In this document: positions 23,592 through 59,779 of the stretch, piece after piece
Layout: each line of letters opens with the position of its first letter
Numbering within the stretch: the first letter of the stretch is position 1
Origin: Phytomonas francai
Lineage: Eukaryota > Euglenozoa > Kinetoplastea > Trypanosomatida > Trypanosomatidae
Direction of reading: 5' to 3'
Assembly: GCA_001766655.1 (NCBI GenBank)
Contig: MJCC01000005.1
Span: 517,147-577,246 of the forward strand
DNA length: 60,100 nt
Notes under the pieces: generated by a model
Database searches by the model: none
What the model saw: only the letters and a program-made list of their open reading frames with translations
Told to the model about the DNA's origin: nothing
Position numbers and translations under genes: made by a program

Positions 23592-26516
23592 ATGCACACG
23601 TATAAACCTTGCGCCCATCATTCTTTATTTCGTATTCATTATCCCCTTCGCCACGTGGTTTGTACTTCATCCAGACTTTCTTTAGGGCACCAACGATCCC
23701 CTACTGTGCATGCTGTTAGTCGTCGCTCTTTTTTCACCTATTCTGTCCGTCGATTACTTCTAGAGCGTGTTGAGGTCGCCCACTCGACCCTTTACAACAG
23801 ACCCCTTAGACCCGTTTCATCATCCTCGCTCCCCTCAAAGGGCTCTTCGGCTGGCAATGGGAGACATGGAGGAAGTGGGATTTATGGAGAGGATGTAACG
23901 GGAAAAACAACACATCGCGCCTTCGGAGAGGGGAACTCCTCGTCTAACCACCTCGCGAATACTCCCACCTCTCGGAATACTATTCAACCAATGCGTACGC
24001 TATCTTTTGCAGACGCGGAGTGTTTTTTCTTCCGCGATGATAACGATAACGATGAGAACCGTGAAAAAGGGATTTATTCCCGCGCATCATCGCATTCCAT
24101 TGATCAAAACGCTTCGTCGTTGTCATCTTCATCTTCCGCACCTTTTTGTTTGCTTTGTCGAGAGTACCTCGAGCCCCCTGCGAATAAACGTACTCATATT
24201 ATTTCTGGAAACCGAGCAACTCATTTAAATCATACCTGTCGTGAAGTTGTTCTGGATTCCTTGGCTCTTCTCGCGATTCGAGGATACTCAATTGACACCA
24301 TTTACGAGGTATGGTCCGATGCACTTTATCGTCACGAGGCTTTTTTCCGAATTAAATCGCTTGTTTCCCCTGTTTGGAGTATCGAGCGCCGTGCAGAGAA
24401 GCTTTCACAACTGCTTTTGGGTCTAAAGGAGGCAGGGGTACTTGATTTAAGTCTCGCGGGAGTTTCTTCAGATACCGGCACCGGCAATGATACTTCCTTT
24501 CATGTCCGCCGCCGTATCGCGTTTGAGCGGTTGGAGTATATTGGTGATAATGCCTGGGGGACACACATTTCGAGCCGCATGATGATTATTTTTCCCGATC
24601 AGCAATGGCAGTATAGCGACCGCGCAGTAGCGTTTAATTGCTTTCGCGATGCGTGCGAGATGAATGTCTTGTTGGAGGAGATGTTTGACGTCCTGCACTT
24701 CGCGCGGCTGCACCCAAGCTACGCCGGCGCCAAAATTGGATCCGGAAAGGTAAAAGCGGATATCCTGGAGGCTCTTATCGGGGAGCTCCACGTTAACGTG
24801 TGGGGGTTAGAGCCCAAAATCTATGATGACACCCCTTTTGTAGAGGTTAATGACCTGCAAGAGAGCCGTCTTGTCTCGGTTATAAAGCACTGCTTAACGG
24901 AGATTTATGATTTGATTATTCTTTATCATTCGCGGGGTCTGAGCTGGAATGCGATTCCGCTTGCGAAGGAGTTGGCGGTACGGCAAATTTGGAAGTGTAC
25001 GATGCCAAGCTTGCAAAGGCATAAGGTCGCTATGCGGCGTGGCATCTCGCGAGCGGTAGTGGAATGCATTGATTTTTCAACCTCCACTTCCCCTCCCACT
25101 CCCACTACTACTACTACTACGAGTAATGGTACCAATGATTTAACAACTTCAAAAGATGGCGAGGGGGCCTCGCAGGGGCTTTGCGCCGTCTCTCATGCGC
25201 AAATTACGCCGCGGGCGAATTTGAGGCCCGTGGCAAATATCCGTCTTCCCGCTCTTCTTGCGCTTTCGAGCTCGCCAGAGCGCTACCCTCGGGTGGTGAA
25301 ACATCCCCTTCGAGCGCTCCCTCTGGAGAAGCTCCCGCAGTCCACGATTGCTGAACACACTCGGCAGGATGTTTTTGCATATTTACATCAAAGTTTTGAA
25401 CGATTGGACTTGCTAAGCGAAGACGCCTTTCAGATATTCAACCGTGTAGAGGGGGCGGAGTGGGGGAAGTATATTCTGCAGCTCGTACCTCATATCGCAG
25501 CGGCGACCGCAGCCCTTTTACAATCCCCTTCGAGGAGGAAAGACGACGAGCACTCCTGCACCTCTCCCGGGAATACCTTTTTTAGCCCATCCCCTAATGA
25601 TGTGGAACAGGAGAATAATAATGGAAGCTCGGCGATGGAGAATCCAAGCGCAATGGGGTCTTCTGGATTTTTCGCCACGCCAATTATCTCCGCTGGGGGG
25701 TTTTCGGATCTTTATTTTCGCGATCCCTACTACGATCTCTTTGATTCTCCTCGTAGCCTCGCCGAGGCGCACGCCTCGCATTCACGGCAGCCTTTTCGAC
25801 GTCATGGCTCGATGCGTCTTCCCCTCGTATCGATTTTCAAATGTACGGATGCGTACGCCATAGCAAAAGGTGGCCATAGACAACAAGAAAAAGAAGAAAT
25901 AAATGATAAAGAAGGCGAAGACTTAGCTCTTAGTATGGCGCGAAACAATGCGTATCCTCCTTTAATACAGCCTTCTTTACTTGGTAGCGAAAATGGAAAG
26001 TTCTTACGTTTACCAGGAGGGCAGTTATTTTCATCGTCGCAGCGCCTTTCCAGCCTAAAGCCGTGTTTATTTCGCTTATCGAAATATGTTCCCGAGGGAA
26101 TTAAAACGCCCATTGGAGGTGTGGTTACCGATAAAAACCTTTACTTTGGCAAATACGCTTTTCTCGCGTATGGAAAATCAAACCCTCTGCGTGCCGAGGA
26201 CGAATTTGACGCCAGTCAAAGAGACCATTCCGAAGGACTAAACGGTAGCATACGATTAGACGTGAAATATACGGAATTCAACACGTTAACGGAGCTGAAC
26301 CATGCGGTGGGAAACACTTCGTCAGGGAATAATGATGGGAGTCTCCCTGAAGATGATAAAATGGAGCAAAGTAATGAGAAGGGCTGCGTAGAGAAGGATA
26401 ATCAAAGGAGTAGTGATAAAAATGGCCGAGGGTTCAGCAGTATCGAAACAGCTAGAGAGTATTGGTTGAAATGGGCAAAAACGCGCCGTCTACAGAACAA
26501 TAACTTTTTTAAATAA
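23592..26516 (+). CDS. kinetoplastid RNA-editing endonuclease-like RNase III protein (KREN type)
   Basis: A protein of 974 residues. An Arg/Ser/His-rich start (about 1-55) suits mitochondrial import. A U1-like zinc finger lies at 186-214: Cys186, Cys189 (FCLLC), His202 and His211 or His214. The RNase III signature is FERLEYIGDNAWG with Glu312, Glu315 and Asp319. The second acidic pair is Asp390 and Glu393 in KVKADILEALIGEL. All four metal-binding positions are therefore kept, unlike the noncatalytic KREPB4-8 proteins. Zinc finger followed by RNase III, and the GDNAWG wording and the downstream RDACEMNVLLEE segment, are the layout of KREN1-3, which cut pre-edited mRNA at gRNA-defined sites in the 20S editosome. 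The C-terminal half is poorly conserved with many Ser/Asn-rich inserts. It is longer than I expect for KRENs. mRPN1-type processing nucleases are the alternative. Confidence 0.85.
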   Translation: MHTYKPCAHHSLFRIHYPLRHVVCTSSRLSLGHQRSPTVHAVSRRSFFTYSVRRLLLERVEVAHSTLYNRPLRPVSSSSLPSKGSSAGNGRHGGSGIYGEDVTGKTTHRAFGEGNSSSNHLANTPTSRNTIQPMRTLSFADAECFFFRDDNDNDENREKGIYSRASSHSIDQNASSLSSSSSAPFCLLCREYLEPPANKRTHIISGNRATHLNHTCREVVLDSLALLAIRGYSIDTIYEVWSDALYRHEAFFRIKSLVSPVWSIERRAEKLSQLLLGLKEAGVLDLSLAGVSSDTGTGNDTSFHVRRRIAFERLEYIGDNAWGTHISSRMMIIFPDQQWQYSDRAVAFNCFRDACEMNVLLEEMFDVLHFARLHPSYAGAKIGSGKVKADILEALIGELHVNVWGLEPKIYDDTPFVEVNDLQESRLVSVIKHCLTEIYDLIILYHSRGLSWNAIPLAKELAVRQIWKCTMPSLQRHKVAMRRGISRAVVECIDFSTSTSPPTPTTTTTTSNGTNDLTTSKDGEGASQGLCAVSHAQITPRANLRPVANIRLPALLALSSSPERYPRVVKHPLRALPLEKLPQSTIAEHTRQDVFAYLHQSFERLDLLSEDAFQIFNRVEGAEWGKYILQLVPHIAAATAALLQSPSRRKDDEHSCTSPGNTFFSPSPNDVEQENNNGSSAMENPSAMGSSGFFATPIISAGGFSDLYFRDPYYDLFDSPRSLAEAHASHSRQPFRRHGSMRLPLVSIFKCTDAYAIAKGGHRQQEKEEINDKEGEDLALSMARNNAYPPLIQPSLLGSENGKFLRLPGGQLFSSSQRLSSLKPCLFRLSKYVPEGIKTPIGGVVTDKNLYFGKYAFLAYGKSNPLRAEDEFDASQRDHSEGLNGSIRLDVKYTEFNTLTELNHAVGNTSSGNNDGSLPEDDKMEQSNEKGCVEKDNQRSSDKNGRGFSSIETAREYWLKWAKTRRLQNNNFFK

Positions 26517-42350: not shown

Positions 42351-45300
42351 ATGGGAATCAGCCATTCAGGCGTAGCTGAAAACCTTATGCCAGTCGCGAG
42401 AGTGCCGCAAGGTCTGTCGGACCCTCGCTCAGAAGGGAAATCTGTATTGACTTCACGACTTTCCTTCCATGGAAGGTGTCAAATGGCCACGAATAACTCT
42501 TCTACCATGAATGCAAATGCGAGTGCAAATGTTATGATTCCACACAATACTTTCGCAAATTCTAAACCAGCTGACACCAGTTCCGAAGCGCTCGTCTTAT
42601 TGAACCATCTTTCGCTTAACTGGGCGATGTTCGAGGAAAAATTCGATGATATTACACAGCTCTTTGTTGAGATTCTCCTTACGAATGATATAGCAAATAA
42701 CGGTACCATCACCTCACCGAAACCTCCTTGGCGGAATGTTGCGAATGGAAGCCGAGCGCCAAGCCTCACCGAAGAAGAGACCGCAACAGACTCGAATAGT
42801 ATGCGTGTCTCGGCGCGCGCACCTCCACCCGCAGCGGCGGCGAAATTCCAAAACCTCCCCAACGAAGAGAAGGGTTTGGCGAACCTAAATGGGCTTTCCA
42901 GCAGTTTTGTCTTTCCAACGCACGTTCAACAGCGTGGCCGCAACAATCTACTGCCATCCCTTCAACAAGAAAAGCCCCCTTTGGGGGCGAAAAAATCTTC
43001 CCCACCGCACGCCTCGTCAGGGCAGCCCACCAAAGACACCGATGTGAATGCTCCCCGCCAGAGAACTGCCCGAGCGGGCAGTTTGAAGGGTAGCTTTTCA
43101 CAAATGGATGCGGCCTTTTCGGATATCGGCGCTTTCGACTGGACGAACGACGAAGTCTCAATGATGCAAATCTCGCCCACGCTGCGGATCGCGGTGCTCG
43201 AGCTGGGGTATGTGGGTATGCGCTGTGTTGTGGACACATTGTCTTACCTTGCATTCGGTGAATGCCATAAAGAGTCGGTCGTCAGACCACCTGCAGAGTG
43301 GGCCTCTTCGAACACCCCCTTTTCCGCTCAATCTACGAATTCCAGCGTTCCACATTATCTCGGTAGCGATACTTTAAACAATTTGAGTGGAATTCACCCC
43401 GATGCACGGTGTACTCCGAGAGGCAAGCTCGAAATGACCACTTTATCACACTCCCCGAGACGGCATTGGCCGAACAGCACGGAGTCATACTCTTCAAGAA
43501 ATGGTGGGGGTCTTTCTAGGATTGCGGCCTTGAACACAGTTGTCTTTATGGATCGAGGCAGTAATCTCATATCCCATTCAAAGTGTACAAACGACAATTT
43601 GAACACAGGCCTAAAAACGAATGTTTCTGATCGATCGAGAAACTACTGCCCTCAGAGGAGACATCGTAGCTTTATGACCAAATCACTTAGAGAAAGAGGC
43701 TATAATAGTGAGCTCCTGATGTTCATAAACTTCCGAAGCAGCAAAAGTCCGAGGTGCCCGATAATTAACAAACCAATATTACCTCATAAAGGGATGGTTA
43801 CGAAATTGTCTGACGGCCCTCATGCCAGGAATGACGAGGATGCCTCACAGCGTCCTCAGGCGACAAACCTCTCTCCGTTATTTCGCAACTCTCGTCAGCA
43901 CAGCGCGGCGGGGAAGAAGGTCTCTCCTCTTCCTTCCGCGCCCAGTATATCGTCTGAAGGGTTTAGGGTGGGTGAGGCGGGGGGTTCGCGCGCGTCCGTG
44001 TACGGTGCGGGCGGCGGGCGAGGGCCCGGCAGCGGTGATACCGTCCATCATACCAGTACGGGTGGCTATGACCGCCTCATCGATCAAGAGGCTGCCTTGC
44101 CTGGTTTCTATCGCGGCGCGGTGCTGGATGCGCTCTGTGAGGTGTTCGCTCATTTGCATCTCACCGAGGGGGACTTAGCCGTGATGATCATGTCGCTTAT
44201 AGTCTCGGCGCTAGATGTGCAGGAGAGCGAACAGGTAGCTCAACAAAAACAGCTTTCGCCGAAGTTTCCGACTTCGAATCATGCGGGGAAATCGAGAAAC
44301 GGCGAACACCACAGCTCGCAGCCATGCGCCGAGGCCCCTACAGGAGCAGGTAGCGTATCGCTTGAAAGCAACCATCACAATTCGAGCCAAATCGGTAGCC
44401 ACAAAGACAAGACTAGTAACGCGTTGAGCGAGAATAGAAGTTTTAATCGCTTGCCTAATTCGAGTATTTGGGTTATTGTAATGAAGCTCGTGCGCACCTA
44501 CTTTATGCCGCCTCTATCACAGGCAAGAAAGATACTTCAGTTTGCTTCGGGATGCATTGGCAGACCGTCTTCAGAATTTGCGATGGGTTCACCATCGAGA
44601 AGGGAAAGTCGAGTTGAAAGCAACAATCTCTTGCATAATCAAGTCGTCGAAGGCGCTTGTATTCAGAAGTCTGGCAATAGCCTAGCTATAAAGGGCCGTA
44701 GTAAGTTGAATAGTTCCGTAGTTAGCAGTCGATCCCAGGCGAAATTGACGAGCTTTAGCAATGCGACAACACCGAGTACGTGCGTAACAAAGACACTCGA
44801 TAGCTTAAACTACCACGTTTCAACAAACTACGACATCTTGTACAGCCAGTCGCATGCGTTCTTTAGAAAATATTCGGCTTTGTTTAATCTGCCTACATCC
44901 TCTAAGAAAGGAAGCCAGCTTGAGGCAGACCAAAAAACGTCTCTCTCTTCATGCTCACTTAGCCAATCGAACTTCCAATCAGTACCTCAGCAGCGCCAAA
45001 AGCGACTGAACTATGGGGGAACGTCAAAAGTGAAGTCGAAGATTATGAACAACGTAGAAAATGGAAACTTTATCACTTCGACATTATCGGCGTCAAATGA
45101 TATTCTGTCTCTCCACGGAGCGCAGCATGGCTACCATGTGAACTTTTCTGATAATTCTATGTCCGCTTCGCCTAAAAATTTTCTCCCTTCTAGCGCTTCT
45201 CCAGCATCGAATTTCAAAATTGTCAAGCGCCGTCTGGGAGAGTTGTTGGTGCAGAAGCGCAGCTTCGTGCTTCATTTTGCCGAGCATGTTGATAAAGGTC

Positions 45301-48173
45301 GTCGTATGACAGGCTCTTTGCAGAGCGATTTTATCGGAGGCAGTTTACATCCCAATAGTGTTGGAAATACCCACCAACAAACCTTTAACCAGTCCACGGA
45401 GCTCGCCGAAAGAACACCCACCACGGCTCGTGTAAATTTTCAAGAGGCACGTCGTGATGGGGATGATACGAACCCTTCCCAGTCTGGGATGCTTCCAGCC
45501 ATCGGTAAAGGCGCTAAAGACAACCATAAGAGCTCCGTCAATCGCCGGTTGTCCTTTAACCCTGTCTCAAAGGAAGGCGAGGAGGAAATTGGTAACGATA
45601 TCATCTTCCCACTGCGGACCCGAATGCTGATTCTCTGCCGCCAGTATGTTTATCTGTACGATGCCATCCCAAGCACTTTCGCGATGCTTGGCATTGAGCA
45701 GACCTCGAATTCGGATTTCATGCCAGCCTATCTCAACACCCCGATCGCGCTTCTCGACACCGCGCGTAATGCGTTGAGCGACTTCTACATTGTCAGCGGG
45801 CCGACGGATACGGAGACGGCGATGGTGCCTCCCACGCGGCAGGTCCGCGGCGCCCTCGTCGGTGGCCAGGCTTCCCCACCCTTCCCGAACAATACCGCCC
45901 CTCTGGGGGATTTAGCGCCCGATGGCAAGTCCGACAGCCGCGGCGTGTCCCCAGTGAGCTCCACGATGACGCTTCCTTTTCCAGGCAGCAACCACGTCGA
46001 CGTCGACGTCTTTCGCACGCGGAATGAGGAGGGGGGGATCTCTTTACTCACCCTCCCCATAGCGCAGCCACCCCACGGTGAGGAGGACCCCCGCCCCCAC
46101 GACCCAGAGAAAACACCGGGGACGTCTCCGCCGGCGGTTCGGCCACCCTCCGAGGCGAAGACGCGGCTGCCTGGTCTGGATTCCACCCTCTACGCAAGGC
46201 GGAGCGAGCTCTTTTTGTTCCGGAAGGACCCCCCTAGCGGTGGTGATGAGAAAGGCGTCCTCTGGGGCACGCACAGCGGTATCACCCATGTTGTCGGGAA
46301 TGAGGCGGTTGGCATCACAGTGTACCCACTGCGCATCCTCTACAAGGGTGTTCTTCACCACTTTCTCTTCCAAAAAGTAGGCACGCGGGCGTGGTGGTAT
46401 ATGCGGCTAACCGAACTCGTCACGGTCTGTCAGTCCGCCGCGCATGCCCTCAAGGTGGCGGCGTCGAGACAGTCCGTTTACGCGTTTATTCGGAATCGGA
46501 TTTCCTACACCGTGGGGCCGTCTGCCTTTGAATGTGTCGATATGCTCGGGGTCGGAGCCTTCGGCCGCGTCCTGTTGGTGCGGCACAAACTGACAGGGAA
46601 GCTCTTCGCGATGAAAATTGTCCGTAAGACGTGCTTTCATGGGGTCCGAAATGTCATTGAAATCCGCCGCGAATGCGCGATTCTGGAGTCTCTAGACTGT
46701 CCCTACATAATGAAGATTCATGCTTGCTTCCAGTCTGACAGTCGTGTTTACATTCTGTTAGATTACCTTCCCGGATGTGAGCTCCTGATGCACACCCAAC
46801 GCGCTCTAGGTCACCGCTTTGAAGAGCCGGCGGCGCGTTTTTACATCGCCGAACTCGCCATCGCGGTGGAGCATCTGCGGCTTCACGGAATCCTGCACCG
46901 CGATGTGAAGGGCGACAACCTCGTCTTGGATGTGGAGGGCCACGTCGTGCTCACGGATTTCGGTTTCGCGAAGAAGATCACCGTGGATGATGATTTATAT
47001 CCCACGCAGGGCGACAACCCGCCAGGCCGTGTTGTTAGGCAGCGAACTGGTTGTGGCACGCGCGCGTACATCGCACCGGAGGTCCTCAACGCGACATTAC
47101 CAAATGAAGAGGGTTACGGCTTAGAGGCCGATTGGTGGAGCATGGGGGTTGTTCTCTTCACCTTAACCACGGGGTGCTTTCCTTTCTTGCGTAAGACCGA
47201 GCACGAGACGAACGTCGCCATCACGCAGTCCCCCCTTCAGTTTCCCCCGCATGTGGCGCTGTCGGAAGCGGCACGAGATGTGTTGTTGATGCTGATGCAG
47301 AAAGACCCCGCGCGGCGCATTACAACCCTCGCGCAGCTCAAGAGACACGCCTTTTTTAATGGGTTTGACTGGGAGGCTTGCGAGAAACGCCAGCTGCGTC
47401 CGCCGGTGTCCTTACACAAGGATAGCTACAACACGCCATCGTCCTCCTCGGCGGCGTCGCGGCGACTGAAAGAGGCAGTGAGGAACGCCCTCTGCTGCGC
47501 AAACGACGCACATTCACAGAAGCTACCCGTCAGTTGGGATTCGAGGGAGTATAGCCTCACGAACACACGCTACGCCAAGGAGTTTAAGCAAGAGAAAAAG
47601 GAGATGCTGCTTTTGGAGTCGGCATTCGGTCCAGATGTGATACCAATGCCGATCCAGGTTGAGAATGACGTTTTTGGTCCACTTTATGATAACCAGGAGC
47701 TTTTCAGCAGCATGCGAGATGCGGTGGATACAAAATATGATTACGACGCGCGTGGCTACATCCCAGAGGTGTCGCGCATGGATATTGTTTTGTTCCCGAA
47801 TGGCGAGCAGATGGTATACAGAAGTAACGGGATCAATAGTACCGCGAACGGTGACATCAATCCTTTGGACACAGCCTTTACGGATACTTGCACAAATGTC
47901 GTAATGGACTCTCAGCAGCAGTTCGGACAAAGCACAGATAGTAAAGCCCGGGCATCTTTTGGACATTCCAACCCATTGTCCATGAGCTATGGCGACACTG
48001 GTGGTAATCATAGCACCAATGGAGAGGTTTTTAGGTTAGTCTTAGACGATTACAAAGAGGAAAATTATTCTCCCATAATCTATATGCCTAACATAGAGAC
48101 ACACACAGCACCAGAAACCGCAATGCCGTTTCCTCAGCCATCTTTCCAGAAAGGTATGGTTCGGACGAAATGA
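42351..48173 (+). CDS. giant AGC-family Ser/Thr kinase, possibly N-myristoylated
   Basis: A protein of 1940 residues. It starts MGISHSG, with Gly2 and Ser6 fitting the N-myristoylation consensus. About 1380 residues of Ser/Asn-rich sequence follow, with several short hydrophobic helical islands (near 280-300, 580-625 and 1090-1145). The kinase domain is at about 1394-1690. It has the Gly loop GVGAFGRV, Lys in FAMKIVRK, HRDVKGDNL (Asp about 1517), TDFGFAKK, and CGTRAYIAPEVL, then DWWSMGV and a FFNGFDWEA segment. This FF-x-x-x-DW end, with GTRAYIAPE, marks the AGC group (MAST/Rim15 or PKA/PKC neighbourhood). A short AGC-type tail follows, then about 220 residues of acidic and Asn-rich sequence. 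All catalytic residues are present. Substrates and subgroup unknown. The gene is followed by another giant kinase. Confidence 0.85.
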   Translation: MGISHSGVAENLMPVARVPQGLSDPRSEGKSVLTSRLSFHGRCQMATNNSSTMNANASANVMIPHNTFANSKPADTSSEALVLLNHLSLNWAMFEEKFDDITQLFVEILLTNDIANNGTITSPKPPWRNVANGSRAPSLTEEETATDSNSMRVSARAPPPAAAAKFQNLPNEEKGLANLNGLSSSFVFPTHVQQRGRNNLLPSLQQEKPPLGAKKSSPPHASSGQPTKDTDVNAPRQRTARAGSLKGSFSQMDAAFSDIGAFDWTNDEVSMMQISPTLRIAVLELGYVGMRCVVDTLSYLAFGECHKESVVRPPAEWASSNTPFSAQSTNSSVPHYLGSDTLNNLSGIHPDARCTPRGKLEMTTLSHSPRRHWPNSTESYSSRNGGGLSRIAALNTVVFMDRGSNLISHSKCTNDNLNTGLKTNVSDRSRNYCPQRRHRSFMTKSLRERGYNSELLMFINFRSSKSPRCPIINKPILPHKGMVTKLSDGPHARNDEDASQRPQATNLSPLFRNSRQHSAAGKKVSPLPSAPSISSEGFRVGEAGGSRASVYGAGGGRGPGSGDTVHHTSTGGYDRLIDQEAALPGFYRGAVLDALCEVFAHLHLTEGDLAVMIMSLIVSALDVQESEQVAQQKQLSPKFPTSNHAGKSRNGEHHSSQPCAEAPTGAGSVSLESNHHNSSQIGSHKDKTSNALSENRSFNRLPNSSIWVIVMKLVRTYFMPPLSQARKILQFASGCIGRPSSEFAMGSPSRRESRVESNNLLHNQVVEGACIQKSGNSLAIKGRSKLNSSVVSSRSQAKLTSFSNATTPSTCVTKTLDSLNYHVSTNYDILYSQSHAFFRKYSALFNLPTSSKKGSQLEADQKTSLSSCSLSQSNFQSVPQQRQKRLNYGGTSKVKSKIMNNVENGNFITSTLSASNDILSLHGAQHGYHVNFSDNSMSASPKNFLPSSASPASNFKIVKRRLGELLVQKRSFVLHFAEHVDKGRRMTGSLQSDFIGGSLHPNSVGNTHQQTFNQSTELAERTPTTARVNFQEARRDGDDTNPSQSGMLPAIGKGAKDNHKSSVNRRLSFNPVSKEGEEEIGNDIIFPLRTRMLILCRQYVYLYDAIPSTFAMLGIEQTSNSDFMPAYLNTPIALLDTARNALSDFYIVSGPTDTETAMVPPTRQVRGALVGGQASPPFPNNTAPLGDLAPDGKSDSRGVSPVSSTMTLPFPGSNHVDVDVFRTRNEEGGISLLTLPIAQPPHGEEDPRPHDPEKTPGTSPPAVRPPSEAKTRLPGLDSTLYARRSELFLFRKDPPSGGDEKGVLWGTHSGITHVVGNEAVGITVYPLRILYKGVLHHFLFQKVGTRAWWYMRLTELVTVCQSAAHALKVAASRQSVYAFIRNRISYTVGPSAFECVDMLGVGAFGRVLLVRHKLTGKLFAMKIVRKTCFHGVRNVIEIRRECAILESLDCPYIMKIHACFQSDSRVYILLDYLPGCELLMHTQRALGHRFEEPAARFYIAELAIAVEHLRLHGILHRDVKGDNLVLDVEGHVVLTDFGFAKKITVDDDLYPTQGDNPPGRVVRQRTGCGTRAYIAPEVLNATLPNEEGYGLEADWWSMGVVLFTLTTGCFPFLRKTEHETNVAITQSPLQFPPHVALSEAARDVLLMLMQKDPARRITTLAQLKRHAFFNGFDWEACEKRQLRPPVSLHKDSYNTPSSSSAASRRLKEAVRNALCCANDAHSQKLPVSWDSREYSLTNTRYAKEFKQEKKEMLLLESAFGPDVIPMPIQVENDVFGPLYDNQELFSSMRDAVDTKYDYDARGYIPEVSRMDIVLFPNGEQMVYRSNGINSTANGDINPLDTAFTDTCTNVVMDSQQQFGQSTDSKARASFGHSNPLSMSYGDTGGNHSTNGEVFRLVLDDYKEENYSPIIYMPNIETHTAPETAMPFPQPSFQKGMVRTK

Positions 48174-49627: not shown

Positions 49628-52600
49628 ATGTTAAAATCTGATAATTTACAAGAAAAGTTCTTAAGCAATCCCTCTGATCAGGATGCACAAACCAACCGGG
49701 CCCCCGCTGACCCCATTTTCTGTGAAAAGAATGGAGTCGTCCAAAATTTATCTGAATGCCTTAAAGAGCATGACAAAGAGAGTCATAGCAATGAGGCAAC
49801 ACTAGAAGCTACAAAAGTTTTAAACGAAGAGCACTTCTCTTCACCACGCAATTGTAATCCACCAATAGATGCAAGACAAGAATACAATTTGGTAGAATCC
49901 ATTGAGCAGGTGTACATTTCAGCTTTCCCGCAAACAGCTAGCCATGAACCCCCGTCGCGCATTCAAGAAACCATGTATATGACATCGCCATTTTTGTTCA
50001 GACGATTTAACTCCGCCAGACAAATAAACTTTGTTCGGGCCAAAAAAGACATGCAGCTATACAACCAGCTGCGCCACTGTGCACGCCAATCCATTGAAGA
50101 CTTACTGATACCAGTTATCATCGTAAAAAACTCACACTTTTTCGCGTCTTCTCACGAAGGTTCCCCTACTCTTCAACCATCTATGACCAGTAATCGCGAT
50201 ATTCTCAGCAGCACTAGCAGTCCTATAGACCCTCTTTCACTTTCAAAGACAATACCATTAGATACTGTCTTTAGGCATTTCCAATTGGATTCTGACAAAC
50301 TAAACGAGGATTCTCCATGTTGTTGCAATGTGAATCCGGAAAAGAAAACAGAAAAGTCTGTAAACCTCACAGCCATCCGAAAGACGGCCTCCCTCAGAGG
50401 GGCTGCTCACAGCAAATCTAGTTTTTTCGAGCATCAAGAGGTATCCCATGCCTCCTCTAAAGGTATGACAGACATACACGCTACAAACCCCCTTTCTCGC
50501 TCCTGCAGGTCACCTTCTCTATTTTCATCCGAGACATTTCCAATCGTGCATGCGAATCATGCCGGGCTCCAGATTCTCGGCTGCGCTACACACCAGGATT
50601 TTGTCTGCAGTGATTTCGGAGCTAATTTCCGGTGCTATATCCCCGTAGCAGCGGATCGACCCTGCGGCAAGCGGGGGCGTGATTCATTCAGCCGGGATGA
50701 CTCCGAGGGTGGGGTTGCGGTTGGAGCGACAGAATCCCAGGTGAACTCTGGAGTTGCCACAATCAGAACACTTCCGCACTTTGACAACTGTACGACAGCA
50801 TCCTCAAATTCGGTGCGTACCTTTCCTCCTCCAGACGACTTGAAGAGGTCGGATTGCTCTAAATATGAAGTTACACAGCTCTCAGAGCTCTTCCGTGCGG
50901 GGACGGAGTGCTACTTGGGACTCCATAACATACACGATTCAAGCAACTATACATGCTTTGCGATAAGTATCGATCAAGTGAACCTATGCAAACCCGAAAA
51001 CGCGACCACTCTATTAGGGAAAAACACTAACGATGTAAATGAAACTAAATCAACTGATTTTTTCCTAGAGACAGGTGCGAATATGAGCGGAGTTGACATG
51101 ATAAATACAAATGCTCTCCTTGCTAACATTAAATGCAGGAGCTCACAGAAAGATAGGTTCGAGTTTCCCGACGAATACAGTTGTGACGGTAACGCTGACG
51201 AGCCGTACTTAATGATCTTTTTCCTTAGCAAGACATTCCCTTCTGGAAGCATCGAGATACATGCAAATAGAAGTGACGAGGTGGCAGACAAAGCTTTGTC
51301 TATACCTATGCATCTGAAATCATCAGCTCTTAATACAAAGAGGCAATCTAATACAGAGCCGTTCCTTTTTAAGTGTAGGACTGATCCCACAACACCCGTT
51401 ATTGCCATTAACAAGCCAATTACAACTGGAATCTTGAGTCCATCGAGGACTTCGCTCAGCGAAGATCGTGTTGACCCACCTACCTCCGTCCTGCCATCCT
51501 TTGCGCACCAAGCTCTTCGCAGTATCAAGTCAGATCCCACTTTTCTCGCTCGCGCCTCCTTGTCAGTTCATTCTCTAAAAGGTTCGATGCACACGGAGCG
51601 CCGAAGCGGCGTTGGTACGGAAACGGAGTTGAATACAAGCGAAATGGTAGAGAAACCTAAGAACAAAAACCTTAAGGAGGGAAGCCCCACTAAAAGTCAA
51701 ATCAGGTTTCAGATTGCCCGTAAAACTCATCAAACGAATGCGTATAGGCCTTTTAGGCAACTTTATATGCCCATTAGTAAAGATTTTCCGGGTTCAAACA
51801 ACGCGGGGAGGAGTAAGTTGTCGCTTTCAACCATTTTGTCGAGAGAAATTAACCCAGCATCGTCAAAAGAACACAACCTACTTAATCAAGGACATCCCTT
51901 TCAGGAAAAGACATCTCGTAGGGATTCACATGGGCGCCGACTCAGTGAGACGCAACAGCAACATTGGCATGTACCAGACCCATTTCTGTCAAAGCGAAAG
52001 ATGTCGCAAGTGGGAAGCCGGAATTTAAGCATATTCAGCCACTTAGAAGGCAGTACTGAGGCTATGCACACCGTAACGGAAATAAGGTCAAAGGAGATTG
52101 GGACAGATCATCCCGATATGCTTGTAGATGGTAATTCCAGCATCGATGCCTTGGCTAAATCACCAGTACAAAAAGGGAAGAGGACCTCTCGCCTCAGACG
52201 TATGGTTCACGCAAAAGCACCGAAGTTCGCTGCCGATGGTTCTAATTTGAGCTTAGACTCCTCTAGTGTAACTCAGCAAGCCAAGGACCAGATTAAAATC
52301 ACAGAGCCGCTCAACCAGGGTGCCCGGTCTCACCGGAACGATCCAGTGAGGGATCACTACACAAATACGGACACTTTGAAGACGTGGAAAGTCTTTGGTG
52401 TGGTAGAATCCGCCGGCAAAAATACCTCTGCAGCACATACGGCATCGAAAACAGTTAGGCCTGCATCGTCAGAGACAAGATTCTCGCCCTTTTCGTTGAG
52501 TGGCAGGAAGGAGGAAGCTTTACATGGGCCCACATCAGGCTGTCAGACCCCCTCCTTGACCCCCAACAACTGGCGAAACAATACAGGGCATACCTATTTG

Positions 52601-55600
52601 CACCCGGACAATGGTTGTAATGAGTGGGATAAGTTACGAAGGAATTCCGAATCGTTCCAAGGAAGTAACATGAGGCCCTCAACCAATAATAAAGATGTGA
52701 CCACACGTACCAGCAGCACAGCTTTCAGTCCTGATTCTTCAAACCTAAAATTTGTTTCCTTCAGCACCTTCCCCGATGTTCCGACTGGGGATTCCAGTGG
52801 ACAGCAACAACATACACCGTTACAGGCAAGAAGCATGAGTTTATCCTCACGCCCCGCAATGACCCAACGCGCCCGCACTACAGACACTGTGAATGTTAAA
52901 AATCTACGTGCCCGATTGGAATCCCTCAAGGGCATTGCTACGGTTCATATCTCGAAACGTGTTCCTGAAGTCTTCATCATGAACTTTGTGTCGTTTATCC
53001 TGTTCTTGCAGTCTGCCCAGCGCTATCAGCGTTGTTGCGGTGCTGAGGTGCCGGTTCATTGCTTTGCGAACGTCAAGGACACTTTTTTCGTGATCGATCT
53101 GCTACCAAATACCATACTCGAGGGGATAAGTCTGGATGAGATGATGGAGAAGCTCGAAGCAAAATACGCACAATTCGAAAAAAAGACTACCCGTAATGAG
53201 CAAGACTTTGCTGTCTCTGAGGTTGAGCGGGTGAGCCATACTTCTTTTGATATCACGAATAGCCCTAGCTCTGATCTCAACAAGGCTTCTCCACAAGCTG
53301 AAAGCTTGAGGATTGGAACCAAACGACAGTTTAGGCTTATTAATCAGGCATTCCATACGACGCATCTGCAATCTCTGGTGATGGGCAGCGCCTCACGAGG
53401 TAGGGACAGTGGAGCAACGAGCATGTCCAACGGGTCGATGGGCATGGGAACGGGGCTGGTATCTATCGCGTTGCCGGATGCATCTCTTCTGGCAAGTGCT
53501 GACGGCGTGGATCAGGATCGGGCTAACTTTAATAATCCCAATGTTGCCTCTGTCGTCATTTCTCCCACGCAATCTGGCACGGCAGAGATTCCATCTCCAG
53601 AAGTGCAAGCCTATGTGCCGCTTGAGTGCATCCTTTCACAAGAACTAATTGACCTTCTCACTTATTGCAACGGTTCCCTCAGCATCCGTCGCGATAGCGC
53701 GGCCGTCACACTTAGTCTTCCCTATATTACAAAGGAGCGGTTGGCCTTACTTGATAGCGTCGAAACAGTGCAACTGTCCTTACAAAAAGGGTTGTTTACG
53801 TTTGGCGTTTCGCTTATCAACATTCTGACAGAAGAAGTGGAGGCAAGGACAAATTTTGAGGGTGCCTCACTGTTGCATAAACCAGATGAGGAGAATCATT
53901 TGTCGCAGAATGAGAAACAGAGCCCGGTGCCAAAGTCACCCCCAGGGAAGTCCATCAAAAGTGTGATCGGAAAAGGGTACGAGGTCATTAGCCAAGGCCA
54001 GCCAATCTCACCACATGCGGAGATGGCAAACCATTCATTGATCTCCCTAACGGAACCGCTTATCATCAATGATGATGAGAAAGAATGTCTTTCTGAGGGA
54101 AGCTCTGGACAGGGAATCCAAAGCCTCAGCTCTAACAGTCGTAACCAACTCCAACACGTGCCACCGCGGCGTAAATCGTCAGTAGTTCAGTTTATGCTTG
54201 ATGACAGTACAGAGGATGGTAACAATATTAGGGCCTCTACAACACTTCATGACAGCAAAAATGGCAGCACTAGTCCCATCTCTTGCAAGGTTGCATCGTC
54301 TAAAAGGAAAGTTTCTTCTGCAGGACTTGCCACTGCAGCCGCAGGGGCTTCACTCCCTAGTGTACTGAGAAGCGAGAATAATGGCGTAATAGGGAGCTTG
54401 CCAATCGATAAAAACCCACAGGCTGAGTGTTTGTCTGAGTTTGGACGTGATAGCTTAAAAGAAAAACTCGAAGATCAAGCTACGTCGTCATCGCATTCTA
54501 TACTGTTAACTACCGAAAGCCCCTTTCTGGAAAAGGAAGTGAAGGCGGATGACGCCTATGACAGAGAAGCAACCACAAAATCGGAAAATACAGACCAATC
54601 TGACTCGGAAAGCTGCAACATATCAGAACCACTACGCAAAGATGATTCGAAATCCAAAGGAGTTGATCTTTTAGAGGAGTTCGAACTAAATGTAAGTGCG
54701 CCCGAAGGTCTAATTTTCAATCGTGCAGAATTGAAGTCCTCAAATAATGATCCGACGTCGTCTTTGCAGACGAATTTAGAGGGGGTGACGACACTGATAT
54801 CCGCTACGGAAGATCGGGAGGGGCCTTTTCACCCTAAACTAGCCTGTTCCTGTTCCATCTTACGCAAGAATTCAGCCTTTCCTTGCACAATATCTCAGAG
54901 TAGTAGTAGCTCTAGAAAGGCAACGAAGAGTGTTTCCTTCGAGAACGTCGAAATGGGTACCCAAGGAGTAGCACAGCGCGCCCCAAGCTTGAGTTTTCCA
55001 AGCATCCCTAACGATTCTCTAGACGAAAGTTATCCTAATATGTTCCGCATTTTGGGCACAGGACCGTCTTTTGAAAGTGGCAAGGACTCCAGAGGGTTCG
55101 AATCGAGACGGAGCAAAGACCTTAATAGCTTCAAAACAAATGGTCTGCCACTGTCCTCTGAAAATCTTGAAGAAAGGGTATTTCCCCATTGCCAAACTTC
55201 TTTTGAACCCAGTTCCTCCCATGTGCCAAAGAAACACGAAGGAGAGGGGCCAGGTACGAAAGAGATCAGTTCTCATGGTGAAGCTAGGCTCTTCTACCTC
55301 GTCATATACACCACTGAGGATCGCCCTGATATCGAGGAGGAACTTGGTCGCTACGGGCACTGCTGCTTGTTTATCACAACCCCCGAAAAGATGTTGCGTT
55401 ACATACGAGCTGGGATGGACCGCTTTGATTTACTTCTCGTGGAGTGGAACGATAAGCTTCTCACTCCCGAAATTAAGAAGCTTTTGTTGGAGCGTACGTC
55501 TCATCAGACCGTCGTGATGTACCATCTAACTATTTCAGACGACGAAACCGGGGATTGCGATTCTGAATCAAAAGATAGCAAGCATAGGGGGGGTGGAGCC

Positions 55601-57481
55601 ACATGCTCAACCCTTCCTGCTTCAATTCCTGCGAGCGCCATCCTTCGCAGCTCTGACATCGCGTCGGTATTCCTTAACTCCCGTATGCAGAGACAAACAC
55701 TGGAGTACTTTTTTCGAAAGCGGTTGCTGCGGGAAATGCTGGAACTCCGGGTGATACAGCCCTATCAGATAGTCCGTCAAATTGGTAGTGGCTCTGCTGG
55801 AGATGTTTTTGAGGTGGTGTTATACGCTTCCAAGGGCCGTCTGGCTATGAAGCGTATCTTTCTGAAGAATATGTCGTTGCGAGGGATAGAGCGACTCAGT
55901 CGTGAGGTCCATATCATGAGCTCGCTAGATCACCCCAATATCATTACTTTCTCTCACACCTGTTCCGCCGGCAACGATTTTTGCATCTTTATGGAGCTCT
56001 GTGATGGGAATCTGAACCAGAGAATTCAAGCCCCAGTCTCGCCGTCCCATGGTGTTCCCTCTAACTCGAGTTTTCCTTCTTCTCATATTCAAGTCCCTCG
56101 AACTTGGTCTAGTTCCATCGTAACCAACAGCAAAAACGGTATGATCGCACCGACCAGTGTCGCCAGTCTAACGTCTATCAGCCCGGAAGAAGCAGTATTG
56201 ATTATCCACGACATTGCCAGCGCCATCGCCTATCTCCACAACCAAGGTATCGTCCACCGGGACATAAAGCCGGCAAACATCTTGTTTGCGAACAACGTGG
56301 TCAAGATTGGCGACTTTGGCTCGGCTATCAGGCTGCACGAGCAGCGGCCGCTGACCAACATGAAGGGGACGCTGTCTTACATGGCCCCCGAGGTCATCCT
56401 CGGCGAGCCATATGGGAAGCCCTGTGATATGTGGTCCTTTGGCTGCGTGCTGGCGGATATCATGGGCCTCGACCTGGCCCACCTGGTCGGAATGCACATT
56501 CCGGCCCTCGTCGAGTTGTACGGGTCGCTCAGTATGAACGAGAGCCTGCCCGTGACCATCGCGAACCTTACCGTTTCTCGACTGGAGGATGTGGCCCCTG
56601 CTACGACCTCACGTGGTGTCCTCGAGGCCGTGCGTAAAGCTTCGATCCAAGCCACAAAAGAGCGAGATGAGTTGGGGAGTTGGTTCGCTTCCACTAACAC
56701 ACTGGAGGTGACCCCTGTGAAGTCACCCTTTATATGCAGACCCGATAGCCAATCGGACTTGCAAGGCTTGAATATCACCTCCACCGTGGTGTCGCGCGAC
56801 TTTTCACAGTCCCGAGGCCAGAAGACCTCCCTATACCTGGATACCAGCAACGGGGGGGGAGTGGACTCCATGACGCGAAGCGGCAGCGTGCCGCTGCGGC
56901 TCCCCGCCACGCTCCCCGTCGAGGATCTCAACGACGTTCCCCTCGTGTCGCGCTACGCGAGAATGCCGTATGAGTTTTCCAGCAGCCTCGACAAACGCCA
57001 GCCGCATCAGCCTAGCAAAAGTCGCATCGACGCGGCCGGGGAAAGCAGCAGTCTGACCGTGTCCCGCAAAGTCACCTGCATCAATATCAATAAGAACTCC
57101 GTGATTAGCACGCAGATGGTCTCACTGCCTCGTTCGTTGGTGGAGCTTCTCGAGTCGTTATTCCATCGTGATCCGACCAAACGCATGACGATCGAGGTGG
57201 TACTGGAGCATCCGGTCTCGTGGGACGTCGAATGGATGGCAAACATGATGACGGCTCTTCATGAGGTAAACAAAAGCATAATAAGCTTGAATAATGCCGA
57301 AAGCAACATCGGTGACTCTTCGATATGCTATTCGAAAACCGGACGTTTTGCACGGGGTGTGCGCAGCCAGAGGGCAGCCGGCATGGGTCCTAGGGGCAAT
57401 GGTTTCGAAGAAAAGTTGTCGCTCTCGTTGAACTCTTCACCGTTATTTGTACCGGATGATGGAGGAGCTCAAAAATTATAA
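49628..57481 (+). CDS. giant PAS / pseudo-histidine-kinase / receiver-like / Ser-Thr kinase protein
   Basis: A protein of 2617 residues from the first ATG after an AG. The frame is open further up only to a GTG at 49574. A split PAS-like domain covers about 150-550: SIEDLLIPVIIV (about 155), then IVHANHAGLQILGCATHQDF (about 305), then strands such as YTCFAISIDQV and DEPYLMIFFLSK. At about 1115-1170 and 1320-1365 are segments resembling a decayed HATPase: a VFIMNFVSFILFLQSAQRY helix and LSQELIDLLTYCNGSLSIRR then AAVTLSLPY. At about 1887-1970 a receiver-like domain reads LFYLVIYTTEDRPDIEEELG and FDLLLVEWNDKLLTP. A full kinase (about 2042-2560) has GSGSAGDV, Lys2075, HRDIKPANI (Asp2212), DFG (Asp2229) and GTLSYMAPEVI, which is STE11/MEKK-like, with inserts of about 45 and 200 residues. 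I infer a sensor kinase rebuilt from hybrid histidine-kinase parts. The kinase is certain. The PAS, HATPase-like and receiver-like calls are moderate to weak. Confidence 0.8.
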   Translation: MLKSDNLQEKFLSNPSDQDAQTNRAPADPIFCEKNGVVQNLSECLKEHDKESHSNEATLEATKVLNEEHFSSPRNCNPPIDARQEYNLVESIEQVYISAFPQTASHEPPSRIQETMYMTSPFLFRRFNSARQINFVRAKKDMQLYNQLRHCARQSIEDLLIPVIIVKNSHFFASSHEGSPTLQPSMTSNRDILSSTSSPIDPLSLSKTIPLDTVFRHFQLDSDKLNEDSPCCCNVNPEKKTEKSVNLTAIRKTASLRGAAHSKSSFFEHQEVSHASSKGMTDIHATNPLSRSCRSPSLFSSETFPIVHANHAGLQILGCATHQDFVCSDFGANFRCYIPVAADRPCGKRGRDSFSRDDSEGGVAVGATESQVNSGVATIRTLPHFDNCTTASSNSVRTFPPPDDLKRSDCSKYEVTQLSELFRAGTECYLGLHNIHDSSNYTCFAISIDQVNLCKPENATTLLGKNTNDVNETKSTDFFLETGANMSGVDMINTNALLANIKCRSSQKDRFEFPDEYSCDGNADEPYLMIFFLSKTFPSGSIEIHANRSDEVADKALSIPMHLKSSALNTKRQSNTEPFLFKCRTDPTTPVIAINKPITTGILSPSRTSLSEDRVDPPTSVLPSFAHQALRSIKSDPTFLARASLSVHSLKGSMHTERRSGVGTETELNTSEMVEKPKNKNLKEGSPTKSQIRFQIARKTHQTNAYRPFRQLYMPISKDFPGSNNAGRSKLSLSTILSREINPASSKEHNLLNQGHPFQEKTSRRDSHGRRLSETQQQHWHVPDPFLSKRKMSQVGSRNLSIFSHLEGSTEAMHTVTEIRSKEIGTDHPDMLVDGNSSIDALAKSPVQKGKRTSRLRRMVHAKAPKFAADGSNLSLDSSSVTQQAKDQIKITEPLNQGARSHRNDPVRDHYTNTDTLKTWKVFGVVESAGKNTSAAHTASKTVRPASSETRFSPFSLSGRKEEALHGPTSGCQTPSLTPNNWRNNTGHTYLHPDNGCNEWDKLRRNSESFQGSNMRPSTNNKDVTTRTSSTAFSPDSSNLKFVSFSTFPDVPTGDSSGQQQHTPLQARSMSLSSRPAMTQRARTTDTVNVKNLRARLESLKGIATVHISKRVPEVFIMNFVSFILFLQSAQRYQRCCGAEVPVHCFANVKDTFFVIDLLPNTILEGISLDEMMEKLEAKYAQFEKKTTRNEQDFAVSEVERVSHTSFDITNSPSSDLNKASPQAESLRIGTKRQFRLINQAFHTTHLQSLVMGSASRGRDSGATSMSNGSMGMGTGLVSIALPDASLLASADGVDQDRANFNNPNVASVVISPTQSGTAEIPSPEVQAYVPLECILSQELIDLLTYCNGSLSIRRDSAAVTLSLPYITKERLALLDSVETVQLSLQKGLFTFGVSLINILTEEVEARTNFEGASLLHKPDEENHLSQNEKQSPVPKSPPGKSIKSVIGKGYEVISQGQPISPHAEMANHSLISLTEPLIINDDEKECLSEGSSGQGIQSLSSNSRNQLQHVPPRRKSSVVQFMLDDSTEDGNNIRASTTLHDSKNGSTSPISCKVASSKRKVSSAGLATAAAGASLPSVLRSENNGVIGSLPIDKNPQAECLSEFGRDSLKEKLEDQATSSSHSILLTTESPFLEKEVKADDAYDREATTKSENTDQSDSESCNISEPLRKDDSKSKGVDLLEEFELNVSAPEGLIFNRAELKSSNNDPTSSLQTNLEGVTTLISATEDREGPFHPKLACSCSILRKNSAFPCTISQSSSSSRKATKSVSFENVEMGTQGVAQRAPSLSFPSIPNDSLDESYPNMFRILGTGPSFESGKDSRGFESRRSKDLNSFKTNGLPLSSENLEERVFPHCQTSFEPSSSHVPKKHEGEGPGTKEISSHGEARLFYLVIYTTEDRPDIEEELGRYGHCCLFITTPEKMLRYIRAGMDRFDLLLVEWNDKLLTPEIKKLLLERTSHQTVVMYHLTISDDETGDCDSESKDSKHRGGGATCSTLPASIPASAILRSSDIASVFLNSRMQRQTLEYFFRKRLLREMLELRVIQPYQIVRQIGSGSAGDVFEVVLYASKGRLAMKRIFLKNMSLRGIERLSREVHIMSSLDHPNIITFSHTCSAGNDFCIFMELCDGNLNQRIQAPVSPSHGVPSNSSFPSSHIQVPRTWSSSIVTNSKNGMIAPTSVASLTSISPEEAVLIIHDIASAIAYLHNQGIVHRDIKPANILFANNVVKIGDFGSAIRLHEQRPLTNMKGTLSYMAPEVILGEPYGKPCDMWSFGCVLADIMGLDLAHLVGMHIPALVELYGSLSMNESLPVTIANLTVSRLEDVAPATTSRGVLEAVRKASIQATKERDELGSWFASTNTLEVTPVKSPFICRPDSQSDLQGLNITSTVVSRDFSQSRGQKTSLYLDTSNGGGVDSMTRSGSVPLRLPATLPVEDLNDVPLVSRYARMPYEFSSSLDKRQPHQPSKSRIDAAGESSSLTVSRKVTCININKNSVISTQMVSLPRSLVELLESLFHRDPTKRMTIEVVLEHPVSWDVEWMANMMTALHEVNKSIISLNNAESNIGDSSICYSKTGRFARGVRSQRAAGMGPRGNGFEEKLSLSLNSSPLFVPDDGGAQKL

Positions 57482-57759: not shown

Positions 57760-58741
57760 ACCATCTCTCCCTGTATTTAGTTTATTTACCAAATGAGAGG
57801 GAAGGAGCCGCCAGTGCCTCTTATCTTTTTTTCCCCCAATTTCCCTTGGTTTGTTATGGTGAGGTTAATCACTCCCTCATCAAAGACTAAACCGCTGAAA
57901 TGGATAATAAAATATGGCTTCAGTATGTCTACGCGTATCTGATCGTGGCACTTGTAAAAGTGTCTTGAATCCTCTCTAAAACAGGAGTTTTTTTTGATAC
58001 GCTTTTCTTTCCACCTCACTTTTTCCCTTCTGTGTGTATGTGGGGGGTGGGGTTTTCAAATGTGGGAAGAAAAATAGAAATTGCATTAAAAAAGGCTAAA
58101 AAGAGGTGGATCTAAAAGTCGGAGATCGGTGGGAGTAATAATACTTACCGCAGTTTCATGGCTTTTATATCTCTATATTTCTAAAAATCTAATGACATTT
58201 TCTTTTTTTTGGCCGTTGTTTCTCTCCTGTTTTTTTTTCTACGATGCAAGAACGATTTTTACAGATGCTTTTTTCATATCATAGTTTCAATCATTTTTGA
58301 AATCTTGTTCACAGATTCGAGTTGCATATGGATGTAACTTTATTGCTTATATAGCTATTTCATTAACTATTCAAATGATTAATTGTACTTCAGGATTATT
58401 TTATTATCTTATATGAGGATGGAATGGAAAGGAAAATATAATTAATCAATGGACTCTTTCCCAATGCTTTTTTTTCTGCAACTTTAGTTTTCTGTACCAT
58501 ATATTGTTGGGGAAGTTTGTAGGTTGCGTCTTGTGCTAAAAGTATTTCCATACACATAGTTAATAGGGACTGTTATGACCAGTAAATAGGATAACATGCC
58601 TTTTTGTGCTCCTTTCTCTCTTCCTTTCCTTCCATTCCCACAATTTATCTCTTCTGGCTTCTTAATATGATAAAAATCGTTTTTAGAATTGTTTAAGCGC
58701 AATATAGGAAGTAATATTTTTGTGCATACTTGTTATTCATC
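57482..58741. other. long AT-rich intergenic spacer
   Basis: About 1.26 kb with a TA microsatellite at 57733-57759 and many T runs. Short open stretches are AT-driven and unsupported. The next gene opens at the ATG 58742, not at the in-frame TTG 12 bases upstream. Confidence 0.55.
57733..57759. repeat. (TA)n microsatellite
   Basis: About 13 TA units in the spacer. Confidence 0.9.
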
Positions 58742-59779
58742 ATGTCCGAATCCTGGTATATTCCTGATGATATCAAGGATCGCTGTGAAGAGAACCGCTT
58801 CAGTCCCAATCAACCGTGCTCCCACGAAGTACTCTCTAGAATTATGGTCTTTTACCAGTCGCACGGGATTGTAGATGTTATCGACAACGTTGATTTTTTT
58901 GCTGAAGCGTTGGTGAAGGAGATGGGATACTATGCGTACGATGTTATCACCATCTCAGAAGAAAGTATGGGTGATGCATTCGACGCATTAGCTAAGAAGC
59001 ACTTTTCTGAGCACGCCCACGATGATGATGAGGTGCGTTTTATTATTGGCGGTGAAGGCTATTTTGACATCCGTGATCCCGAAGACCGCTGGATTCGCAT
59101 GTGGTGTAAGACTGGTGATTGCATCGTTTTGCCCGCGGGAAGCTACCACCGCTTTACCACTTCCACCAGCAAGTACACAATGGCTGTTCGCCTTTTCAAG
59201 AAGAACCCGAAGTGGATCTCGCTGGACCGCTATGATGGGAGCGCGACCGAGTGCCATATGCAGTACGTAGCCTTACTTCAGGAGCCCCTACAAACTGTGT
59301 TGGGCCCCTCGTGCGATGACGAAAAGGACCCGGACTTTATGAAAAACCACTCCATCCCGTTTCCTCTGGAGCTGGATGCGGTGATGGGGAAAGTTGTGCG
59401 GAAATTCTTGGAGTCGAAAGGGGGGGCGCTGGTTATGTACTTTACCGGGGCGTCTAGTCCCTACGTGGGAGGTGAAAGCTGGTGCCCGGATTGCATTGGC
59501 GCCAAACCGTGCGTTATTGGAGGGTTTAACAAACTATGTAATAAGTTTGGGAATGGAAAAGTTTTCTTTGTGGAGGTGCCTGTTGAACGAGCTAGTTATG
59601 AGTACAAACCCGATTACCCATTGCGCCACCACGAATTTATTAAACTGCAATGCATTCCGACGGTTTTTGTGTTTTCTCCTAACCCCACAAGGGCATTGGA
59701 AACGGCTTCCTGGTGGGAACATCTAGTTCTTAAGGTACGTACTGAATCTCCAACCCCTGATGAGATGATCAAGTGGTAA
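58742..59779 (+). CDS. ADI1: acireductone dioxygenase fused to TXNDC17/TRP14-type thioredoxin domain
   Basis: A protein of 345 residues. Residues about 1-180 are acireductone dioxygenase (ARD), a cupin of the methionine salvage pathway that cleaves acireductone to the 2-oxo acid of methionine and formate. Metal ligands are all visible: His91, His93 and Glu97 in EHAHDDDEVRFIIGGEGYF, and His136 in LPAGSYHRFT. The domain's W-I-R-x-x-x-K-x-GD motif is also present. Residues about 210-335 are a thioredoxin-like domain: YFTGASSPYVGGESWCPDCI with the WCPDC active site (Cys248, Cys251), then strands ending in IPTVFVFSP with the cis-Pro. YFTG and WCPDC are the signature of TXNDC17 (TRP14), which reduces small disulfides such as cystine. 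Both halves look complete and catalytically intact with a 30-residue linker and no stop or frame break. I know the two as separate proteins in other organisms. Confidence 0.92.
   Translation: MSESWYIPDDIKDRCEENRFSPNQPCSHEVLSRIMVFYQSHGIVDVIDNVDFFAEALVKEMGYYAYDVITISEESMGDAFDALAKKHFSEHAHDDDEVRFIIGGEGYFDIRDPEDRWIRMWCKTGDCIVLPAGSYHRFTTSTSKYTMAVRLFKKNPKWISLDRYDGSATECHMQYVALLQEPLQTVLGPSCDDEKDPDFMKNHSIPFPLELDAVMGKVVRKFLESKGGALVMYFTGASSPYVGGESWCPDCIGAKPCVIGGFNKLCNKFGNGKVFFVEVPVERASYEYKPDYPLRHHEFIKLQCIPTVFVFSPNPTRALETASWWEHLVLKVRTESPTPDEMIKW

Follow-up and report, generated by a model that had tools for sequence, protein, structure and literature searches.

Control of a MAP3K-type kinase by a receiver or a hybrid sensor is known from fungal Ssk1-Ssk2 and plant ETR1-CTR1, in which the partners are separate proteins acting in trans. 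Ssk1-Ssk2 is also named in the abstract of PMC3573049. For DAK (dual ancestor kinase, Tb927.9.3120), Jensen et al. 2021 (PMC8519429) describe a PAS domain and then a cassette of DHp, catalytic and receiver domains before the kinase, found by HHpred, with the same layout in T. cruzi. In that account DAK has lost the relay His, has kept predicted transmembrane (TM) segments, the DHp region and the receiver Asp, and carries its kinase at 737-980; the fusion is placed in the bodonid-trypanosomatid ancestor. An STE kinase with cyclic-nucleotide (cNMP) and PAS domains and no T. brucei orthologue, LmjF15.1200, was reported by Parsons et al. 2005 (PMC1266030). No account of the domains of the gene described here, or of its whole family, was found among the literature matches listed, nor by terms in PMC7618733, PMC6429582, PMC4177888 and PMC6366073, with supplements and most subscription papers outside the scope of the search.

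We analysed a stretch of 60,100 nucleotides from Phytomonas francai (the window), in which positions 49628-57481 form a stop-free frame of 2617 residues encoding the window protein, P0001. The features discussed below are as follows.

49628..57481, + strand: whole gene, a second DAK-like hybrid-sensor kinase and DAK paralogue, 2617 aa
50090..51265, + strand: PAS fold, residues about 155-546, with three long inserts (fold prediction)
52880..53122, + strand: likely GHKL-like ATPase (CA) core, first half, residues about 1085-1165 (pLDDT about 90-95)
53609..53761, + strand: CA core, second half, residues about 1328-1378 (alignment and predicted model)
53762..53842, + strand: window-clade motif (about LS..GL..FGV...N..TE) directly after the CA core (orthologue alignment)
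55286..55750, + strand: receiver fold, residues about 1887-2041, an insert replacing helix 4 (alignments, profile-profile comparison, predicted model)
55442..55444, + strand: Glu1939 at the phospho-acceptor position, end of strand 3 (motif alignment and model)
55754..57247, + strand: STE11-like Ser/Thr kinase, residues about 2043-2540, with two long inserts, catalytic motifs intact
58730..59779, + strand: next gene, acireductone dioxygenase and TXD17-like thioredoxin, 41% identical to L. donovani P0113 residues 2608-2939

The closest protein to P0001 is P0002 of Phytomonas sp. EM1 (55% identity over the whole length), and in its own genome, a 17.4-Mb assembly of 37 contigs, the sole full-length match to the window gene was the window gene itself. 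The L. donovani relative has an equivalent 3' neighbour: model P0113 merges a kinase gene with an acireductone dioxygenase/TXD17-like gene, its kinase part being followed by the dioxygenase/thioredoxin part. The directly adjoining upstream gene (42351-48173) encodes another very long kinase, of 1940 aa with the kinase at 1395-1669, in which nothing other than kinase families matched Pfam at E 0.01 and which is absent from the receiver-HMM rows. Elsewhere in the window, 23592-26516 encodes a 974-aa protein whose RNase III domain falls slightly below the Pfam cut-off (E 7e-5).

We propose, with a probability of roughly 0.6, that the window protein is an STE11-like (MAP3K-like) kinase whose N-terminal part comes from a hybrid histidine kinase, with the relay dead and the receiver serving as an allosteric module. 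Computation supports the PAS and receiver folds, the intact kinase motifs, the residue losses, the constant receiver-kinase spacing and the paralogy to DAK; we infer allostery, its sign and its signals. The original prediction, made from the DNA alone, had seen sensor-derived modules and a Ser/Thr kinase in one 2617-residue protein, which is confirmed, and its view of descent from a hybrid sensor kinase, with phosphotransfer residues lost and folded modules kept beside an intact kinase, is supported. Structure prediction had been named beforehand as a possible refutation; it yielded PAS and receiver folds and favoured a GHKL-like core.

Pfam reported kinase families only in the window protein, and the complete C-terminal Ser/Thr kinase expected there retains its Gly loop, Lys, HRD and DFG. 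Its STE11 grouping is to be read with the weak deep branches of the kinase tree (51/43). A domain of receiver length had been predicted directly before the kinase, and the model gives a receiver fold at about 1887-2041, whose helix 5 (residues 2018-2041) ends where the kinase starts. Response_reg (PF00072) has no match in P0001 and none in the genome at E 0.001. The window-clade receiver alignment (A1) by itself retrieved no receiver from PDB sequences, and homology was therefore drawn through paralogues, by means of a second alignment (A2) of the receivers of P0136, P0278, P0240 and two further genes of this genome, C14 and C22. Searched against the PDB, A2 retrieved true receivers, with RpfC best at 1e-6, and nearly all of the 38 rows to E 1 were response regulators, receivers or sensor kinases by name (XerH was clearly unrelated). 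Profile-profile comparison of A1 with A2 gave E 2.2e-5 and a probability of 77%, and aligned the window protein's FDLLLVEW to the strand whose last residue is Asp in the other receivers. In two Trypanosoma orthologues the A2 HMM also picked out the receiver site, scoring 2.5e-5 in T. grayi and 6.5e-5 in T. cruzi, whereas none of 240 shuffled proteins did better than 0.35. It missed P0001, P0002 and P0112 of L. major, gave only 0.58 and 0.73 on the DAK proteins, and found nothing on the C11 gene.

From the end of the receiver profile to the Gly loop there are 21 residues in four of five window-clade proteins (P0002, unreadable by motif, looks alike by eye). In seven of eight relatives the gap is 31-32 (P0240 being unreadable), counted from a different HMM end, so that 21 and 32 are not comparable. 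Such constant spacing, read from the sequences, could also be given by packing without signalling.

For the PAS domain, a core near residues 155-330 had been predicted, and structure prediction gives a PAS fold spread over about 155-546; both the PAS and the receiver fold models were built on alignments of window-clade orthologues only. The PAS model had no Foldseek match below E 2.7, and VIA-align re-examination of that search made PAS visible, in 51 chains; neither structure model (PAS; CA plus receiver) has a Foldseek match reaching E 0.001. The stretch between PAS and CA comprises 545 residues in the window protein and is disordered-looking by eye, although compatible with a diverged helix pair, and its length ranges from 115 to 563 across five window-clade proteins (bounds set by hand). 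A strict H-box pattern between PAS and the ATPase core was absent from all 11 proteins searched, relatives included, P0001, P0002, P0102, P0108 and P0112 being among them. By eye, the C22 gene and P0136 apparently keep a helix pair at the DHp place. The "complete hybrid sensor" of the original prediction is not supported, as the region separating PAS from the ATPase-like core showed no recognisable DHp/HisKA. Outside the assigned domains, residues 1001-1050 (52628-52777) are 70% identical between P0001 and P0002, which equals the level of the CA core, and look disordered despite this conservation.

Hydropathy plots gave no N-terminal TM segment in P0001 or P0002; Trypanosoma relatives have N-terminal hydrophobic segments, and Leishmaniinae have none or isolated weak ones. 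Because the two Phytomonas proteins lack segments of the Trypanosoma type, the input of the window protein is likely to be soluble or borne by a partner, as far as sequence indicates. The same difference between lineages suits a reading in which the N-terminal modules are a mere scaffold that docks partners or determines where in the cell the kinase sits, with no conformational effect on it, since placement has changed in evolution; the loss of phosphotransfer residues and the long linkers that part PAS and CA from the rest fit it as well. However, the spacing from receiver to kinase is constant against a PAS-CA stretch that varies several-fold, and conservation of the receiver with its connecting helix (0.80-0.85) is close to that of the kinase (0.77-0.90). 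We consider mere scaffolding rather unlikely.

Under the preferred reading of a dead relay with an allosteric receiver, the His-Asp relay would have ended with an unrecognisable DHp, an insert in place of the ATP lid, Glu for Asp in the receiver and no acidic pair. The receiver would be a fixed allosteric module, autoinhibitory or scaffolding, with its last helix running up to the kinase N-lobe, and would set that lobe through contact. Held by long flexible linkers, the cores of PAS and CA would probably act on the receiver or on partners via ligand or protein binding. Of the allosteric input proposed originally, the receiver's part is thus the best backed, through its fixed distance from the kinase, and the parts of PAS and the ATPase core, on long variable linkers, are hardly backed.

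HATPase-like fragments had been suggested near residues 1115-1170 and 1320-1365. One predicted model favours a GHKL fold there, and we regard such a fold as likely on that model, whereas the profile tests fail. In the Foldseek search with the CA plus receiver model, PhoQ, RetS and KdpD chains were within the top 50 rows, and CA chains (0.92-0.97) scored nearly equally with PLP-enzyme chains (0.87-0.93). The window CA profile matched the paralogue CA domains at E 0.056, below significance, and the paralogue CA HMM had no window-clade match above noise. The paralogue CA domains, including those of the HATPase-bearing P0136 and P0278, retrieve histidine-kinase and CheA ATPases (60 of the 61 matches listed, best 7.9e-13). 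Alignment A4 took in CA pieces chosen by eye from C14, P0240 and the DAK proteins, so that their own HMM matches arise by construction, and in alignment A6 a few stray residues from four CA pieces sit in receiver columns. HATPase_c has no match in P0001, N and G boxes were not seen in the alignment, and an insert occupies the ATP-lid region. The motif directly behind the core is present in the window and in all five orthologue pieces covering the site, and is well conserved in the window clade; by eye it is not at the equivalent place in DAK sequences, and it has no known match.

At the receiver's acceptor position, 25 of the 26 readable relatives have Glu and P0101 has Gln (27 examined, P0004 unreadable by motif), and no acidic pair follows strand 1 in the alignment. 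Since the acceptor Asp, the acidic pair and the ATP-lid region are gone and no DHp is recognisable, the receiver would not be switchable by phosphate in the usual way. Another reading holds that the relay is altered and not dead, in that the receiver is still modified, by phosphate or by a substitute, or that nucleotide still binds to the CA core. Consistent with it, the CA pieces of Phytomonas and Leishmaniinae have, by eye, an Asp close to the first glycine-box position, and the receivers of C14, C22, P0278 and P0240 keep Asp; Glu or Gln in 26/26 readable acceptor positions, the missing acidic pair and H-box, and the insert where the ATP lid should lie make it improbable. Glu at the acceptor also occurs in diplonemid P0136, which the tree does not put within the window clade, so that the change from Asp to Glu need not be a single event.

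This genome holds up to five members of the family. We ran 23 of its kinase genes through the HMMs, the genome having further kinases beyond these; C14, C22, C11, the DAK-like gene and five others were also read by eye, and the remaining 14 by HMM only. The five others (C6_247, C6_203, C13_140, C32_553, C35_695) showed no such modules by eye and are missing from the receiver-HMM rows. The DAK-like gene, L001 (C32:1317747-1320815), encodes 1024 aa, 87% identical over 1-1024 to P0262 of Phytomonas EM1, with two hydrophobic segments, PAS (E 1.4e-5) and a kinase at 742-986; its CA domain and Asp-bearing receiver (receiver HMM 0.58) were assigned by eye and from the DAK description in PMC8519429. 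The C14 gene (L019:1898-7762, - strand; 1954 aa) encodes a pair of cyclic-nucleotide stretches, PAS, CA by eye, a receiver and an STE11-like kinase. Both Asp and the acidic pair persist in its receiver, which matches PF00072 at E 0.19 (positions 2-110 of 111) and is possibly still phosphorylatable. The C22 gene (L022, C22:771500-781400) is a 3989-aa open frame with an incomplete start, a cyclic-nucleotide domain, PAS, receiver and kinase; by eye, its receiver has Asp and its H-box His position reads Glu. P0148, P0142 and P0134, relatives of C14 and C22 outside the receiver HMM, were matched at 2.5e-24 to 1e-18. The C11 gene (L018:2879-6238, - strand; 1119 aa) encodes a pair of hydrophobic segments and a receiver-like stretch, assigned by eye only, that lacks Asp; its kinase domain is close to the window clade in the tree. 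No protein named T. brucei was among the matches listed (98; best 120 of 922; best 120 of 5030; length gates 1439-4580 and 967-3076).

In the kinase tree of 52 rows, the window clade stands at 100/99, joined by P0009, P0008 and P0117 at 98/92, then by C11, P0214, P0218 and P0229 at 100/100; a wider group adds P0240, P0125, DAK and P0278 at 97/88. That the window gene is a simple orthologue of published DAK is very improbable, for although its domain order is that given in PMC8519429 and the kinase domains group at 97/88, the genome has the separate 1024-aa L001, which has the short layout, a kinase at 742-986 near DAK's 737-980 and, by eye, the acceptor Asp reported for DAK. Moreover, the window clade forms a branch of its own (100/99) in a tree whose rows do not include Tb927.9.3120. 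The window gene as DAK itself was dropped once this DAK-like gene was found. The L. major accession Q4Q920 from PMC8519429 matched none of the proteins compared. The cNMP-PAS genes group at 99/99 among themselves, and they and P0136 have no supported link to the DAK/window branch; a single fusion is therefore not demonstrated.

HATPase_c exceeds the Pfam cut-off in P0136 (Hpha, a diplonemid; 2.9e-18) and P0278 (PhM_4; 8.3e-10), taxon labels that we take to denote groups apparently outside bodonids and trypanosomatids. These two HATPase-bearing relatives, P0278 grouped with DAK and the window clade and P0136 unplaced, hint at a fusion that predates the bodonid-trypanosomatid ancestor proposed in PMC8519429. 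Tentatively, we suggest an old multi-gene family of Euglenozoa, in which a complete hybrid histidine kinase may have been fused to a MAP3K-like kinase before the diplonemid-kinetoplastid split. Its members would keep successive stages of decay, first of the His, then of the ATP-site motifs, then of the DHp, the acidic pair and the Asp now read as Glu; the window clade would be purely allosteric, and sister genes with an Asp receiver possibly phosphorylatable. A bacterial-type phosphorelay would thereby have turned stepwise into an apparent intramolecular regulator of a eukaryotic kinase, with several stages within one genome.

Compared with known systems, Ssk1-Ssk2 and ETR1-CTR1 act in trans, whereas the window protein is fused and without phosphotransfer chemistry. 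P0136 and P0278, both EukProt entries, share with it PAS, receiver and kinase in one chain, and probably the ATPase core; they have a hydrophobic N-terminal part, a recognisable HATPase_c whose glycine motifs, by eye, are retained, and a receiver acceptor that is Asp in P0278 and Glu in P0136. LmjF15.1200 and its likely relatives (the C14 and C22 genes, P0134, P0142, P0148) likewise combine PAS, a receiver (seen here by an HMM of which C14 and C22 are part) and an STE11-like kinase; unlike the window clade, they have N-terminal cyclic-nucleotide domains, the C14 and C22 receivers have Asp, and no supported branch joins the two groups. DAK shares the order PAS, receiver and C-terminal eukaryotic protein kinase, with a catalytic domain between PAS and receiver that is likely in the window protein, and the layout, originally thought undescribed, was published for this paralogue in 2021 (PMC8519429). 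According to that paper DAK has TM segments, a DHp and the receiver Asp, its likely orthologue here being 1024 aa long, whereas the window protein has 2617 aa, lacks TM segments and Asp, shows no recognisable DHp and has a putative split CA core. To the published picture we add that DAK is not alone, the window gene being a variant of its layout, among kinases with an unusual regulatory part in parasites of people and plants.
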